Shown: one piece after another, positions 31,696-37,708 of the stretch
Position numbering within the stretch: position 1 is the first letter of the stretch
How the letters are laid out: each line of letters begins with the position of its first letter
Origin: Janthinobacterium sp. TB1-E2
Lineage (GTDB): Bacteria; Pseudomonadota; Gammaproteobacteria; Burkholderiales; Burkholderiaceae_D
Direction of reading: 5' to 3'
DNA: 64,000 nt
NCBI RefSeq assembly: GCF_036885605.1
Contig: NZ_CP142523.1
Coordinates: 1,488,001-1,552,000, forward strand
Notes under the pieces: model-generated
Database searches by the model: none
What the model saw: only the letters and a program-made list of their open reading frames with translations
What the model was told of the DNA's origin: nothing
Made by a program: the position numbers and the translations under genes

Positions 31696-33156
31696 ATGAT
31701 CCCATTTGAACCCAATCTGTCCAGCCTGGCCGTGGCACGCGATATCCTGCTCACGCCGTTTGGCCTGGACGAAGACAAGCTGCTCAAAGCCCTGGGCACG
31801 ATGTTTACGCACAAGGTCGACTATGCCGACCTGTATTTCCAGTCGACCAAGAGCGAAGGCTGGAGCCTGGAAGAGGGCATCGTCAAGACGGGCAGCTTTT
31901 CCATCGACCAGGGCGTGGGCGTGCGCGCCGTGTCCGGCGACAAGACGGCGTTTGCGTATTCCGACGACATTTCCGAGCGGGCCCTGCTGGAAGCGGCGGC
32001 GGCCACGCGCACGATTGCGCGCGCGGGCGCCGGCAAAATCAAGATCGCGGGCCAGATGCAGCCGCAAGGCGGGCGTTCCTTGTACCTGCCCAACGATCCA
32101 CTGGCCTCGCTCGATGCCACGGCCAAGGTGCAACTGCTCGAGCGCGTGGAAAAGATGGCGCGCGCGAAAGATCCCCGCGTGGTGCAAGTGATGGCGGGCC
32201 TGGCTGGCGAATACGACGTGGTGCTGGTGCTGCGCAGCGACGGTGTGCTGGCGGCCGACATCCGCCCGCTGGTGCGCGTGTCGCTGACCGTGATCGCGGA
32301 ACAGAATGGCCGTCGCGAAACGGGCTCGGCCGGTGGTGGTGGGCGCTTCAGCTATGACTATTTCAGCGATGCCGTGCTGGAACAATACGCGACGGACGCC
32401 GTCAATTCGGCGTTGGTGAACCTGGAAGCGCGCCCCGCGCCAGCCGGTCCCATGACCATCGTGCTGGGACCGGGCTGGCCCGGCATCCTGCTGCACGAAG
32501 CGATCGGCCATGGTCTGGAAGGCGATTTCAACCGCAAGGGTTCGTCCGCGTTTTCGGGCCGCATCGGCGAGCGCGTGGCTGCCAAGGGCGTCACCGTGGT
32601 CGATGACGGCACCCTGGCTGGCCGGCGCGGTTCCCTGAACATCGACGACGAGGGCAACCCGACGCAGTGCACGACCCTGATCGAGGACGGCATCCTCAAG
32701 GGTTACATCCAGGATACGATGAACGCGCGCCTGATGAAGATGCCCGTGACGGGCAATGCGCGCCGCGAATCGTTCGCCCACCTGCCCATGCCGCGCATGA
32801 CAAATACGTACATGCTGGGCGGCGACAAGGACCCGGGCGAGATCCTCGCTTCCGTCAAGAACGGCTTGTATGCCGTCAACTTCGGCGGCGGCCAGGTCGA
32901 CATCACGAACGGCAAGTTCGTCTTCTCGGCCAGCGAAGCGTACATGATCGAAAACGGCAAGCTCAGCTACCCGGTGAAGGGCGCGACCCTGATCGGCAAC
33001 GGTCCGGACGTGCTCAACCGTGTCTCCATGATCGGCAACGACATGCGCCTCGATTCGGGCGTGGGCGTGTGCGGCAAGGAAGGGCAGAGCGTGCCCGTGG
33101 GCGTGGGGCAGCCGACCTTGCGCCTCGATGGCATCACGGTTGGCGGGACTGCCTGA
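31696..33156 (+). CDS. tldD: Metalloprotease TldD
   Basis: A 486-residue member of the TldD/PmbA family. The zinc site is LLHEAIGHGLEGD, with His267-Glu268-x3-His272, in the middle of the protein, followed by KGVTVVDDGTLAGRRG. The C-terminal half carries FGGGQVDITNGKFVF and LRLDGITVGGT, both typical. TldD works with TldE/PmbA as a heterodimeric protease degrading unfolded peptides and maturing some RiPP-type peptides and CcdA antitoxin; pmbA is not in this window. It is the last gene of the yhdP operon. Confidence 0.96.
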   Translation: MIPFEPNLSSLAVARDILLTPFGLDEDKLLKALGTMFTHKVDYADLYFQSTKSEGWSLEEGIVKTGSFSIDQGVGVRAVSGDKTAFAYSDDISERALLEAAAATRTIARAGAGKIKIAGQMQPQGGRSLYLPNDPLASLDATAKVQLLERVEKMARAKDPRVVQVMAGLAGEYDVVLVLRSDGVLAADIRPLVRVSLTVIAEQNGRRETGSAGGGGRFSYDYFSDAVLEQYATDAVNSALVNLEARPAPAGPMTIVLGPGWPGILLHEAIGHGLEGDFNRKGSSAFSGRIGERVAAKGVTVVDDGTLAGRRGSLNIDDEGNPTQCTTLIEDGILKGYIQDTMNARLMKMPVTGNARRESFAHLPMPRMTNTYMLGGDKDPGEILASVKNGLYAVNFGGGQVDITNGKFVFSASEAYMIENGKLSYPVKGATLIGNGPDVLNRVSMIGNDMRLDSGVGVCGKEGQSVPVGVGQPTLRLDGITVGGTA

Positions 33157-33298: not shown

Positions 33299-36145
33299 TC
33301 AGAATTTATACTTCACCCCCGCACTGATGAACCGTCCTGCCGCGCCCGCGTAGTCGAGCGGGTTGTAGCCCGTGGCGCCATACGTCAGCGGGTCGAGCGG
33401 GGCGATCTTGTCGAACAGGTTTTGTATCGTCGCAAACACTTCCAGCTTGGGCGTGGCCAGCCAGCGGGCCGTCAGGTCCACCGTGGTGAACGAGGCGATG
33501 CGGCAGCCGCGCGGCGCGTCCGTGCCGTCGGCGAAATGCGTGGCGCAACCGTCCGGGTCATTCTTGAACAGTATGTTGTCGAGCGGCGCACGGTAGTTGA
33601 CGTTGGCCGTGACCCGCCAGTTCTGGCGTTCCCAGGTGGCGCCCAGGTTGATGCGGTCGTCCGGCGTACCCATGCAGTTGGACACATCGCAATTGCCATG
33701 CGTGCCGGCAAAATCGCGCTGCGTGCCATCGCGTTCCGTGCGCAGCCATTTGTACAGATGCGTCCATTTCAGGTCGAAGGTCAGGTTGCCATAGTCGCCG
33801 CCCAGGTTGAAGCGCTGGCGGGCGTCGATATCGATGCCGCGCACCGTCGTTTGCGCCGAATTCACATAGTTGGCCAGCACGGCCGTAATGGCGCCCGGAT
33901 CGCCGGCAATGCCGGTGGCCGTCGATGGGTCGCGCGCTACGTTGCCGGCGGCAATGGCCGCATCCGTTTGCTCCTGGTTGATTTCATTCTTGCGGCGGAT
34001 TTGCCACAGATCCACGGAAATGCTGCTGCGCGGCAGCGGGTCCCACACGGCGCCGACGGAAAAGCTGCGCGAACGCTCCGGCGACAGGTTCGGATTGGGC
34101 GAGGTGATGACGGCGATCGGCGCGGGATCGCACGCCACTTCCACGCCCAGCGCGCAGCGCAGCGGATCGCTGGCGGTGGAGAACGCGGCCAGGCCGCCGA
34201 CGCCGTTTTCCGCCGCGCTGGGGGCGCGGAAGCCCTTGGCGAAGGTGCCGCGCAGGGCCAGTTCGCGCATGGGCGTCCATTTCACGCCCACTTTCGGCGT
34301 GTAGGAATTGCCCACGTCGGTGAAATGGTCGGCGCGCAGGGCGCCTGACAGCTCGACGGTTTTCAGCACGGGCGCCAGCACTTCGGCGTAGATGGCCGAG
34401 GCGTTGCGGCTGCCCTTGTAGGCGGAATAGCCGAGGCCGATGATATTGCCCCGTTCCGTGCCCGTGGTGGGCTTGAGTTCCGTCGATTCATGGCGGAATT
34501 CCGCACCCACGGCCACGCCCAGGCCGCCGCCGTCCAGCTTTGCCACCTCGCGGCTGGCCTTGAAGTCGATCTGCGCGATATGCGTCTTGGCATCGTTCGA
34601 GATGCGCGGCGACAGGGCCGCGTACAGCTCGGGCGAATTGAGGCCCGCGTTTTCCGCGATGCGCCACAGGCTGCCGGCCGGCAGGGCCGCATAGGCGGGG
34701 TTCAGGCTGGCCGCCGCCACGTTCGTGGCGGTCGGGTTGAGCAGGGCGAAGGCGACGTCGCGCTGCAGGTAGCCGTTCAAGTCGTTCGACACCTTGTTCT
34801 GCGAGTACAGCAAGGCGCTGTCGATATCCCAGCCCGCCACCGTGCCCTTGATGCCGGCCACAAAGCGCGTGAAGGTCGAATTGACTTCCGACAGGCGCGG
34901 TCCCACGTCGGCCGCCAGGTAGCGCAGCCGCGCCGCCGTGCCGAAATATGGATTGTCCGGGTGGGCTGCGCCGAGCGACACGCCCGCATTGCTGACGGGC
35001 CCGCCCGGGTAGCCGACCGAGCCGCTGACCGTCGATGGCGTGGTGGCCGAGTTTGATTCGCTGTGATACACGTTCAGTTCCGCATACGTCTGCAGTGCTG
35101 GCGTCAGTTGCCAGGCGGCGCGGCCGAAGAAATTGATGTTCTTTTGCTTGGGCTGGATCTGCCCGTACTGCTGCGCGGCATCGGTCAGGCAGCCGCCGCC
35201 CGGGTCGCCTTGCGGATGCGTGGTGAAGTTGCCGCAGGCGGCGCCGGGGAAGGTGCGTGTAAAACCCGCGCCGGACAGGTTGCCGCGGTTGTAGTAGTCG
35301 AGCGTGTCGGGATTGCGCACATTGCCGTTGACGGCACTGCCGGCCGCGTTGTTGGTGGTGATGGCGCCCGCACCGCTGAGCGACTCCTGCGCGCTGAAAC
35401 CCAGGTCGCGCAAGTCGCTGCGGCCGACGGCGCCCCGTCCGGCCCGGTCGCGGTTCCAGATGGCGGCCTTTTCGCTGTACTCGAGGTTCAGCAGCACGTT
35501 GTAGCGGTCGCTGTCGATGTCGCCGAAGCCGTGCGTGATGGCGGCGCGCGCATCGCGCCCGTCCCACTCCTTCGTCTTGCCGTAATTGCCCTTGATGGCC
35601 GTGCCCTGGTAGTCGCGCCGCAGGATCACGTTGACAACGCCGGCAATCGCGTCCGAACCGTAGATGGCCGAGGCGCCATCCTTGAGGATTTCCACCCGTT
35701 CCACCGCTTCCAGGGGAATAATGTTCAGGTCGGCGAATACCTTCTGGCCATCGTCGGCCAGGCCATACGGCGCGACGCGGCGCCCGTTCAGCAGCACCAG
35801 GGTCGAGGCCGTACCCAGGCCTCGCAGCGATACGCCGGAAGCGCCGGCGGCAAAGCCGTTGCCGAAGGTGGTGGGCACCGAGCCCTGGTTGTCGACGGCT
35901 AGGGTCTGCAGCAGTTCGGCCACGCTGGACTTGCCCGATTTTTCAATGTCGGCCGCGTTCAGCGTTTGCACGGCCGACGCCGTTTCCGCCTGCGCGCGGC
36001 GGATGTTCGAACCGGTGATTTCCACGCGGGCAATCGGGGCAGCATCCTGCGCCAGGACGGGGAGACTCAGCAACGCACTGGCCAGTGCCAGGCCCAGTCT
36101 GGGTGGTGAAAAGGCAGCGGATGGTAAGGATAGGGTAGGGATCAT
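33299..36145 (-). CDS. TonB-dependent outer membrane receptor (paralogue of the one at 43848)
   Basis: A 948-residue receptor starting at an ATG with GGAG upstream. A signal peptide (LGLALASALLSLPVLAQ) precedes ARVEITGSNIRR, a TonB-box-like segment. The plug has STLVLLNGRRVAPYGLADDG and ILKDGASAIYGSDAIAGVVN; the barrel ends ISAGVKYKF. It shares long blocks with the receptor ending at 43848, including GTHGNCDxSNCxGTP and DKIAPLDPLTYG near the C-terminus, so the two are recent paralogues. It sits between tldD and aroG, which are otherwise often adjacent. The substrate is unknown. Confidence 0.94.
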   Translation of the reverse strand: MIPTLSLPSAAFSPPRLGLALASALLSLPVLAQDAAPIARVEITGSNIRRAQAETASAVQTLNAADIEKSGKSSVAELLQTLAVDNQGSVPTTFGNGFAAGASGVSLRGLGTASTLVLLNGRRVAPYGLADDGQKVFADLNIIPLEAVERVEILKDGASAIYGSDAIAGVVNVILRRDYQGTAIKGNYGKTKEWDGRDARAAITHGFGDIDSDRYNVLLNLEYSEKAAIWNRDRAGRGAVGRSDLRDLGFSAQESLSGAGAITTNNAAGSAVNGNVRNPDTLDYYNRGNLSGAGFTRTFPGAACGNFTTHPQGDPGGGCLTDAAQQYGQIQPKQKNINFFGRAAWQLTPALQTYAELNVYHSESNSATTPSTVSGSVGYPGGPVSNAGVSLGAAHPDNPYFGTAARLRYLAADVGPRLSEVNSTFTRFVAGIKGTVAGWDIDSALLYSQNKVSNDLNGYLQRDVAFALLNPTATNVAAASLNPAYAALPAGSLWRIAENAGLNSPELYAALSPRISNDAKTHIAQIDFKASREVAKLDGGGLGVAVGAEFRHESTELKPTTGTERGNIIGLGYSAYKGSRNASAIYAEVLAPVLKTVELSGALRADHFTDVGNSYTPKVGVKWTPMRELALRGTFAKGFRAPSAAENGVGGLAAFSTASDPLRCALGVEVACDPAPIAVITSPNPNLSPERSRSFSVGAVWDPLPRSSISVDLWQIRRKNEINQEQTDAAIAAGNVARDPSTATGIAGDPGAITAVLANYVNSAQTTVRGIDIDARQRFNLGGDYGNLTFDLKWTHLYKWLRTERDGTQRDFAGTHGNCDVSNCMGTPDDRINLGATWERQNWRVTANVNYRAPLDNILFKNDPDGCATHFADGTDAPRGCRIASFTTVDLTARWLATPKLEVFATIQNLFDKIAPLDPLTYGATGYNPLDYAGAAGRFISAGVKYKF

Positions 36146-36405
36146 GCGGTTCTCCGGAAAGGTCAGGCAGTCAAAGGTCGTTGATGCGTCCTTGAGTTTT
36201 GTCCGTGAGCCGATGCCGGGATTAGATCTGGATCAAGGAGTGCCCCGCTTGTCGTCGATAGAATGGCTGGCGTGGCGTGGTTGCCACGACGGACACAGCG
36301 GTAGTGGCCTGCGGACGGGTATGGGCAGCGCGCAACTTTTTATGCTTTTTAACGTACTTTGCAGTGTAAAACGGCAGCGGCATGCGGCTTTGCCGACAAA
36401 TATGC

Positions 36406-36435
36406 TTGCCAACCCTTGCAATTTAGGTTTATAGT
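36406..36435 (+). promoter_or_regulatory. Sigma-70 promoter of the aroG leader
   Basis: TTGCCA (36406-36411), 18 bases, TATAGT (36430-36435). Transcription should begin near 36442, about 20 bases before the leader-peptide ATG at 36461 and ~200 bases before aroG. Confidence 0.6.
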
Positions 36436-36460
36436 CGTTCATCACTTACGGATGACTCGC

Positions 36461-36529
36461 ATGTTCGCTCGCCACTTTTTTACCGCTTATTTTTACTTTA
36501 GCAATTCCAACCCAAAGGCGGTGGAGTAG
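36461..36529 (+). CDS. Phe/Tyr-rich attenuation leader peptide of aroG
   Basis: A 22-codon frame reads MFARHFFTAYFYF, then SNSNPKAVE and TAG. Five Phe and two Tyr occur in 22 codons, with FF at 36476-36481 and the run YFYF at 36488-36499. The in-frame ATG at 36452 would add three codons; GGA at 36450-36452 is a weak ribosome site for 36461. An intrinsic terminator follows 44 bases later and aroG after that, the arrangement of classical attenuation. ACCGCT inside the run (36482-36487) is complementary to AGCGGT just past it (36528-36533), and GGCGGT (36517-36522) is complementary to ACCGCC in the terminator stem, giving possible competing structures. Function is inferred. Confidence 0.75.
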   Translation: MFARHFFTAYFYFSNSNPKAVE

Positions 36530-36572
36530 CGGTCGGTTCACGTAGCAGCAAAACGAGATCCCAGCAAATTCT

Positions 36573-36603
36573 AAAAAACCGCCACTGATGGCGGTTTTTT
36601 TTT
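36573..36603 (+). terminator. Attenuator terminator in the aroG leader
   Basis: AAAAAACCGCCA (36573-36584), loop CTGA, TGGCGGTTTTTT (36589-36600) plus more T. No other gene on this strand could use it: the preceding genes on the plus strand end more than 3 kb upstream. It stands 38 bases before the aroG start, so it must act on the aroG leader transcript. Confidence 0.85.
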
Positions 36604-36640
36604 ACCCAGATGTTTTACCCATCCTTAAATTTTGGAGAAA

Positions 36641-37708
36641 ATGATGCCCCGCACCGATGATTTGCGAATTCGCGAAATGAAGGAATTGACCCCGCCGTCC
36701 CACCTGATCCGCGAATTCGCCTGCTCGGAGCAAGCCGAACAGACAGCCGCCAGCGCCCGCATTGCCCTGCACCGTATCCTGCACGGCCAGGACGACCGCC
36801 TGATGGTGGTGATCGGGCCTTGCTCCATCCACGACACCAAGGCGGCGATGGAATATGCGCGCCTGCTGGTGAAGGAGCGTGCGCGTTTTGCGGGCGAACT
36901 GGAAATCGTCATGCGCGTCTACTTCGAGAAGCCGCGCACCACGGTGGGCTGGAAGGGCCTGATCAACGATCCGTACATGGATAACAGCTTCCGCATCAAC
37001 GACGGCTTGCGCATGGCGCGCGAACTGTTGCGCGATATCAATGAGCTGGGCTTGCCGGCCGGTACCGAGTTCCTCGACGTGATCAGTCCGCAATATATCG
37101 CCGACCTGATCAGCTGGGGCGCCATCGGCGCGCGCACGACGGAATCGCAGGTGCACCGCGAGCTGGCGTCGGGATTATCCTGTCCCGTCGGATTCAAGAA
37201 TGGCACGGACGGCAATGTGAAAATCGCCGTGGAAGCCATCAAGGCCGCCTCGCAGCCGCACCATTTCCTTTCCGTCACGAAGGGCGGCCACTCGGCCATC
37301 GTCTCGACCAACGGCAACGAGGATTGCCACATCATCCTGCGCGGCGGCAAAACGCCGAACTATGACGCGGCCAGCGTGGACGACGCTTGCAAGGCGATTG
37401 CGGCGCAAGGCCTGGCGGCGCGCCTGATGATCGACGCCTCGCATGCGAACAGCTCGAAAAAACCGGAAAACCAGATTCCCGTGTGCGCCGACATTGCCAG
37501 CCAGGTGGCGGGCGGCGACGACCGCATCGTCGGCGTGATGGTGGAATCGCACTTGGTGGCGGGGCGCCAGGATTTGATCCCGGGCAAGGAATTGATCTAC
37601 GGCCAGTCCGTCACGGACGGTTGCATCGACTGGAGCGCCAGCGTGGCCGTGCTGGAAAACCTGGCGGCAGCCGTCAAGCAGCGCCGCCTGAAGGGCGACG
37701 CGGAATAA
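36641..37708 (+). CDS. aroG: 3-deoxy-7-phosphoheptulonate synthase (DAHP synthase), AroG type
   Basis: A 355-residue enzyme, the first step of the shikimate pathway (PEP plus erythrose-4-phosphate). The ATG at 36641 or 36644 follows GGAG; the opening PRTDDLRIREMKEL matches class I enzymes. Strong signatures are MVVIGPCSIHD, MRVYFEKPRTTVGWKGL, GAIGARTTESQVHRELASGL and MVESHLVAG. These are AroF/G/H-type, normally feedback-inhibited by Phe or Tyr; which one cannot be decided by eye, although the leader codons include both. Expression is predicted to be attenuated by charged tRNA-Phe/tRNA-Tyr supply. Tkt in the same window makes its substrate erythrose-4-phosphate. Confidence 0.97.
   Translation: MMPRTDDLRIREMKELTPPSHLIREFACSEQAEQTAASARIALHRILHGQDDRLMVVIGPCSIHDTKAAMEYARLLVKERARFAGELEIVMRVYFEKPRTTVGWKGLINDPYMDNSFRINDGLRMARELLRDINELGLPAGTEFLDVISPQYIADLISWGAIGARTTESQVHRELASGLSCPVGFKNGTDGNVKIAVEAIKAASQPHHFLSVTKGGHSAIVSTNGNEDCHIILRGGKTPNYDAASVDDACKAIAAQGLAARLMIDASHANSSKKPENQIPVCADIASQVAGGDDRIVGVMVESHLVAGRQDLIPGKELIYGQSVTDGCIDWSASVAVLENLAAAVKQRRLKGDAE

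Follow-up and report, generated by a model that had tools for sequence, protein, structure and literature searches.

Organisation of the aroG locus

The window, by which we mean the whole stretch of 64,000 nucleotides of Janthinobacterium sp. TB1-E2 analysed here (1488001-1552000 of its contig), carries a gene for the DAHP synthase AroG, whose product scores 582.5 bits against the NCBIfam AroG equivalog (cut-off 568) and is 99% identical to AroG of three Janthinobacterium isolates; the host genome is a single contig of 6.31 Mb. Direct reading confirms the order of elements given in the initial annotation, in which a promoter-like sequence precedes a frame of 22 codons, five of them for Phe and two for Tyr, and this frame is followed by an intrinsic terminator and then by aroG (Table 1). 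One promoter-like site was found, compared with 0.4 expected in shuffled sequences, and transcription would start from it near position 36442, giving the leader a predicted 5' UTR of ~19 nt. As to the remark that the terminator has no other upstream gene to serve, the nearest long open reading frame (ORF) upstream of the leader, 33299-36145, is on the minus strand, and the plus-strand ORFs antisense to it (e.g. 35664-36434) are taken as spurious. The terminator (36573-36602) folds with -15.3 kcal/mol; a simple terminator scan of the window did not list the plus-strand hairpin before aroG. A second, in-frame ATG is found nine bases upstream of the conserved leader start (36452-36460) and could add the residues MTR to the peptide, but the downstream ATG (36461) is the likely start because one relative (L005) has Ile at the place of the upstream ATG.

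Table 1. Features of the aroG leader region (positions in the window)
Feature	Position	Strand	Basis or remarks
Promoter-like TTGCCA, 18-bp spacer, TATAGT	36406..36435	+	hexamers 36406-36411 and 36430-36435; 10/12 matches
Leader peptide ORF MFARHFFTAYFYFSNSNPKAVE, 22 codons, stop TAG	36461..36529	+	five codons for Phe, two for Tyr
Control codons F F T A Y F Y F (putative sensor)	36476..36499	+	sequence, alignment, codon counts
Possible region 1	36478..36488	+	untranslated leader: pairs with 36516-36526 in the fold; weak
Region 2, antiterminator 5' strand GGCGGTGGAGT	36517..36527	+	alignment, folds, covariation
Region 3, antiterminator 3' strand: ATTCT, five-A bulge, ACCGCC	36568..36583	+	folds, covariation
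Intrinsic terminator hairpin and T-run	36573..36603	+	hairpin 36573-36600; right-arm core (region 4) GGCGGT 36590-36595
aroG, DAHP synthase	36641..37708	+	ATG 36641 or 36644; GGAG at 36634-36637

The arrangement is unique within the 464,000 bases of the host genome that were sampled (the window and 20 further 20-kb stretches, each scanned on both strands, with 78 terminator-like sites), where the leader is the sole ORF with at least five Phe, Tyr or Trp codons in eight that adjoins a terminator. The second DAHP synthase gene of the host genome (L002, G000:C1:5578397-5579422; 51% identity) shows no leader by eye in 520 bases, and within 4 kb of pheA (L207) there is no plus-strand ATG ORF of 9-41 residues with at least five Phe, Tyr or Trp.

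Distribution of the leader in relatives and across the order

Upstream sequences were examined for 181 aroG regions, comprising the window, a relatives set (the 80 best among at least 588 confirmed AroG relatives, mostly Oxalobacteraceae and Burkholderiaceae by title) and 100 regions from a wider sample of the order, which we take to be the Burkholderiales. The latter were chosen, not at random, from listed aroG places and model matches and therefore yield no frequency, and the genomes of the two sets may overlap, as the same strains could be present in both. A strict script retained 126 leaders (the window, 79 relatives and 46 from the order sample) and dropped 55 sequences. Among the 54 dropped order-sample rows are L159, which is the relative L025 repeated, two regions without an AroG match (L167 and L168) and six with a visible aromatic-rich ORF and no stem that meets the rule (L114, L115, L116, L129, L171 and L173).

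Conservation of the small frame and the terminator in relatives, with varying flanks, had been set by the initial annotation as a test of its reading, and this is what is found: an aromatic ORF with a predicted intrinsic terminator between it and aroG, as in the window, is kept in 79 of these best 80 relatives, and the flanks vary. The exception is L025, a metagenome-assembled genome of 2.2 Mb in which aroG lies close behind another coding sequence. The translation of this preceding gene matches the end of window ORF 31696-33156, presumably encoding a TldD-like protein, and the leader has probably been lost.

A 65-row alignment (A1; the window leader with those of 64 relatives out of the 79) was used to build a covariance model (R1), which matches the host genome once at E <=0.001. 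At the same threshold it matches 61 of 300 genomes of the order; this figure is a lower bound and compares with 233 of the 300 that encode an AroG-like protein, so that many genomes with a DAHP synthase are without a model match. Nearly all matches (59/61) stand upstream of an AroG-like gene: 44 are located 29-148 nt upstream of a listed aroG match, and a further 15 have an AroG-like N-terminus downstream, with 43-53% identity. The other two (G183 and G273) have no AroG match in 601 bases and are counted as not before aroG. The full design, as defined by the strict script, is present in 46 of the 100 chosen order-sample regions and in 13 families (f3, f4, f9, f10, f11, f12, f19, f22, f29, f31, f39, f43 and f49). 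It is absent from the examined members of f5, f6, f13, f17, f20, f21, f24, f25, f27, f32, f38, f42 and f46, and also from some examined members of f4, f10, f19, f29, f31 and f43. A class sample of 274 genomes gave five R1 matches, namely one in the host, two in genomes that belong to the same order and are included in the counts above, and two in genomes from outside it (L205 and L206), both upstream of an AroG that is 70-72% identical.

Alternative folds and covariation of the pairing regions

Two complementarities had been pointed out initially: ACCGCT (36482-36487), within the aromatic codons, with AGCGGT (36528-36533), and GGCGGT (36517-36522) with ACCGCC (36578-36583) in the left arm of the terminator. 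The latter is borne out by the region 2:3 fold and by covariation. Region 3 overlaps the left arm (36573-36584), and when a ribosome is placed at the last Phe codon and the right arm is absent, regions 2 and 3 pair with -18.8 kcal/mol. Once the right arm is present the terminator fold wins (-24.4 kcal/mol), and with the ribosome at the stop codon the terminator alone remains (-15.7). An antiterminator alternative, the existence of which had also been proposed as a test, thus forms in the model with a stalled ribosome and before the right arm is made. Escherichia coli pheL, put through the same fold test, gives -23.3 (antiterminator) and -27.4 kcal/mol (terminator fold), and a metastable antiterminator is therefore a trait of a known attenuator too.

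The predicted antiterminator, sharing the terminator arm and freed by a stalled ribosome, recurs in the relatives. For the window and 79 relatives, the mean probability that the region 3 core pairs upstream under a stalled ribosome is 0.999, compared with 0.624 in dinucleotide shuffles, and 78 of these 80 are placed among the five highest when set against 100 shuffles. The corresponding values for the order sample (46 leaders) are 0.808 and 0.598; here the antiterminator is weak in ten, with a probability not above 0.5, and just 22 reach the top 5 of 100 shuffles.

Covariation was assessed in 120 of the 126 leaders. The base beside the GGCGG core shows coordinated changes across regions 2, 3 and 4 (T-A-T in 41, C-G-C in 12 and A-T-A in 7 of the 120); it is paired between regions 3 and 4 in 116/120 and between regions 2 and 3 in 65/120, compared with 46.7 expected, a value as high as which was reached in 0 of 2000 shuffles of a permutation that ignores shared ancestry. 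In the window itself, the inner base beside the core (A-A) is unpaired in 2:3. On the opposite flank of the core, the base is paired in all 62 Oxalobacteraceae-type leaders, in 0/18 from Burkholderiaceae and in 2/40 from the order sample, and the innermost consensus pair of the terminator has both sides changed in 8/65 leaders, seven of these being a change from A-U to U-A. As a separate observation, drawn from L085, L086, L088-L091, L205 and L206, the stem GCCGCC/GGCGGC replaces ACCGCC/GGCGGT, a two-sided change of one pair, in six of seven f4 leaders and in the two leaders from outside the order.

Spacing and the pairing of regions 1 and 2 were evaluated in 123 of the 126 leaders. In 87 of them region 2 starts either 11 nt (49) or 17 nt (38) past the last aromatic codon. 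In toeprints, a ribosome with a codon in the A site covers ~10 nt beyond that codon, and by this geometry the start of region 2 would mark the edge of a ribosome stalled at the last aromatic codon. Of the first complementarity mentioned above, the base match itself stands, but the full window fold pairs the ACCGCT segment (36478-36488) with region 2 (36516-36526) and not with AGCGGT. Against codon-shuffled controls, 1:2 pairing ranks in the top 3 of 60 in 17/80 and 1/43 leaders, which is not above the controls over the set, and pairing by region 1 is therefore considered weak.

Codon constraint in the leader peptide and alternative explanations

As read from the sequence, the leader is a short ORF, predicted to be translated, with a run of end-product codons. 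Phe, Tyr and Trp codons account for 893 of the 1638 codons between the start codon and the last aromatic codon in the 126 leaders. All 126 peptides contain Phe, 121 contain Tyr and 54 contain Trp at any place in the peptide; the window peptide has no Trp, and the Trp codons of many relatives go beyond the Phe/Tyr reading of the initial annotation. Both synonymous forms are in use (TTT 425, TTC 157, TAT 123 and TAC 133), and the combined count of six other T-rich codons is 43, so that it is the aromatic codons that are conserved and not just T-rich DNA. In the 65 aligned leaders, the aromatic block is kept, and the N-terminus and C-terminus of the peptide, like the spacer, differ both in their letters and in how long they are. 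Invariant columns include the leader ATG and two positions within the aromatic block, together with the segments GGCGG, ACCGC and GGCGGT of regions 2, 3 and 4, respectively.

These patterns bear on what else the region could be. A gene for an ordinary small protein that ends in a terminator of its own, with aroG transcribed from a separate promoter and no attenuation, would account for a conserved ORF with a terminator behind it, but both ends of the peptide change while the aromatic block stays, and region 2 is able to pair with the terminator arm. Moreover, the reading frame across region 2 in L015, L021, L036 and L073 is unlike that of their close kin and the GGCGG letters are unchanged, which indicates that it is the RNA and not the peptide that is conserved there; we regard this explanation as very improbable. 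We give equally little credence to the proposal that the terminated leader is mainly a small RNA, or that its peptide acts in trans, with cis control of aroG being secondary. The terminated product is predicted to be ~160 nt long (36442-36603, from the inferred start) and there is a precedent in trpL of Sinorhizobium meliloti (PMC7298713, in part), but the peptide ends vary, and invariance in the alignment falls on the start codon, on portions of the aromatic block and on the segments that pair; a role in trans and cis control of aroG are in any case compatible and not exclusive. Least credible of all is that a DNA or RNA element (e.g. a U-rich one) accounts for the T-rich stretch and the ORF is there by chance, for the aromatic block is indeed T-rich throughout the alignment, but the other T-rich codons are rare, TGG and CAC/CAT occupy places at which relatives have TAC/TAT, and the two other frames carry stops in 39 and 67 of the 126 leaders.

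Promoter-like elements and likely leaderless starts

The two promoter-like hexamers of the window are also found in the 11 relatives that were compared for them (L003-L013), 24-27 nt upstream of the leader ATG in ten of them and 36 nt in L008. Promoter hexamers reach 10/12 matches in 40 of the 80 sequences of the relatives set, in which -10-like elements are most frequent 24-26 nt upstream of the leader ATG, with 29 of them there, and show no excess at 5-10 nt (3 compared with 7.3 in shuffles). In the order sample, a -10-like element is located 5-10 nt upstream of the leader ATG in 28/46 leaders (shuffle mean 2.0, maximum 6 in 200), 20 of the 28 being of the extended TGN type, compared with 0.17 in shuffles. 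Such close elements occur in families f4, f9, f11, f12, f22, f39, f43 and f49, and examples upstream of aroG include L086, L088, L125, L152, L160, L161, L170 and L174. A transcript initiated from a close element would start at or near the ATG, and the leader mRNA may thus be leaderless. Shine-Dalgarno-like letters precede the leader in only 9/80 sequences of the relatives set, and leaderless transcripts have been reported in Burkholderia cenocepacia (PMC4603805, in part).

A model for attenuation at aroG

The design of an amino acid biosynthetic attenuator, as suggested by the initial annotation, is supported by the conservation of the leader, by the stalled-ribosome folds and by its likeness to pheL, and on the strength of sequence comparison and modelled folds we consider it very probable that aroG is controlled by a classical ribosome-mediated transcription attenuator. 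In the proposed model, RNA polymerase would start near 36442 and a ribosome would trail it while reading the leader frame of 22 codons. A shortage of charged Phe- or Tyr-tRNA (in many relatives also of Trp-tRNA) is expected to make the ribosome stall in FFTAYFYF; region 2, just past the ribosome, would then pair with region 3 before the right arm exists, no terminator would form and aroG would be transcribed. With ample charged tRNA, the ribosome would reach the stop codon and mask region 2, the hairpin would form and transcription would end near 36603, and scarcity of aromatic amino acids would thus raise aroG expression.

In many members of the order, such an attenuator would probably be one of the principal controls on entry to the shikimate pathway. 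A broader reading, which we advance tentatively and with slightly less than even confidence, is that a single old attenuator sensing Phe, Tyr and, in many lineages, Trp gates the whole pathway across much of the order, one leader RNA having the role that the proteins TyrR and TrpR play in enterics, with initiation of the peptide on leaderless mRNA in several families. What makes the leader interesting is its mixed aromatic sensor, along with the likely leaderless starts and the presumed control of shikimate entry. By reading two or three aromatic amino acids, a single leader would act as a simple logic gate on the first step common to their synthesis and would be useful for engineering strains that make aromatic compounds, and the series from a 5' UTR to a likely leaderless start would be a natural one in which to study initiation on attenuator peptides. 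Annotators gain a small ORF and an RNA family without an Rfam 15 match here. The model would also suggest how many members of the order, which stand outside the gammaproteobacteria with TyrR/TrpR (PMC5343134, in part), regulate their DAHP synthase.

Relation to known leaders and regulators

Rfam 15 gives no gathering-level match in the window. Membership of Phe_leader (RF01859) was rejected at 22.4 bits (gathering score 55), the best sub-threshold match being Leu_leader with 25.5 bits (gathering score 50), and no T-box or riboswitch is present at gathering level in the window, nor is there one among the 14 matches to 36380-36680 at E <=1.

The pheA and trp attenuators of E. coli are textbook examples. 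Like pheL-pheA, the aroG leader combines a Phe-rich short ORF with an antiterminator that shares the left arm of the terminator, and the energies stand in the same relation. In contrast to it, pheL-pheA controls pheA and no DAHP synthase, has no Tyr or Trp codons and has region 2 past the stop codon, which in the window leader lies inside the ORF. An attenuator at aroR-aroF of Corynebacterium glutamicum was reportedly described by Neshat et al. in 2014. According to the available parts of two sources (PMC11802643, PMC4046766), a Phe-Tyr-Phe leader peptide precedes a DAHP synthase gene there as well, and stalling raises transcription under Phe limitation; the likeness is one of description, and the system differs in belonging to an Actinobacterium and in its shorter aromatic run. 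The initial annotation had envisaged a Phe/Tyr attenuator on a DAHP synthase as a regulatory solution different from TyrR repression. With C. glutamicum aroR such a solution had already been described outside the group, as far as these sources go, and the aroG attenuator is therefore less unusual than was suggested. Likewise similar by description is the uORFC-13-1 motif at Acholeplasma aroF, a proposed Phe uORF next to a terminator with a DAHP synthase downstream, which is from another lineage and has at least one Phe codon; the same source, cited in part, notes attenuation of E. coli aroF as a hypothesis of 1980 (PMC8632094). In gammaproteobacteria, the same pathway step responds to the same signals through protein regulators, TyrR and TrpR, which are conserved there and absent from other classes of Proteobacteria according to the part of the study at hand (PMC5343134).

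Within the literature searched, mostly without subscription papers and in part in extract, no aroG attenuator is described in this group; the mechanism is known, as is a DAHP synthase target in other phyla, and the aroG leader family is undescribed. A comparative study that includes Burkholderia and Ralstonia searched, in its accessible part, for Trp, His, Thr and Leu leaders only (PMC3766115), the words aroG, DAHP, heptulosonate and deoxyheptonate do not occur in the main text of PMC2965389, and the Phe/Tyr operons of the Actinobacteria compared in PMC1262725 are, in the portion available, without conserved upstream RNA structures. With regard to the start of the transcript, the closest parallel in these sources is trpL-trpE(G) of S. 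meliloti, the transcript of which starts at the leader-ORF ATG, as predicted for many relatives of the aroG leader; it has Trp codons and trpE(G) as target, and the window leader has instead its predicted short 5' UTR (PMC7298713, in part). For B. cenocepacia, a supplementary table lists 82 5' UTRs with short transcripts (PMC5688073, in part).
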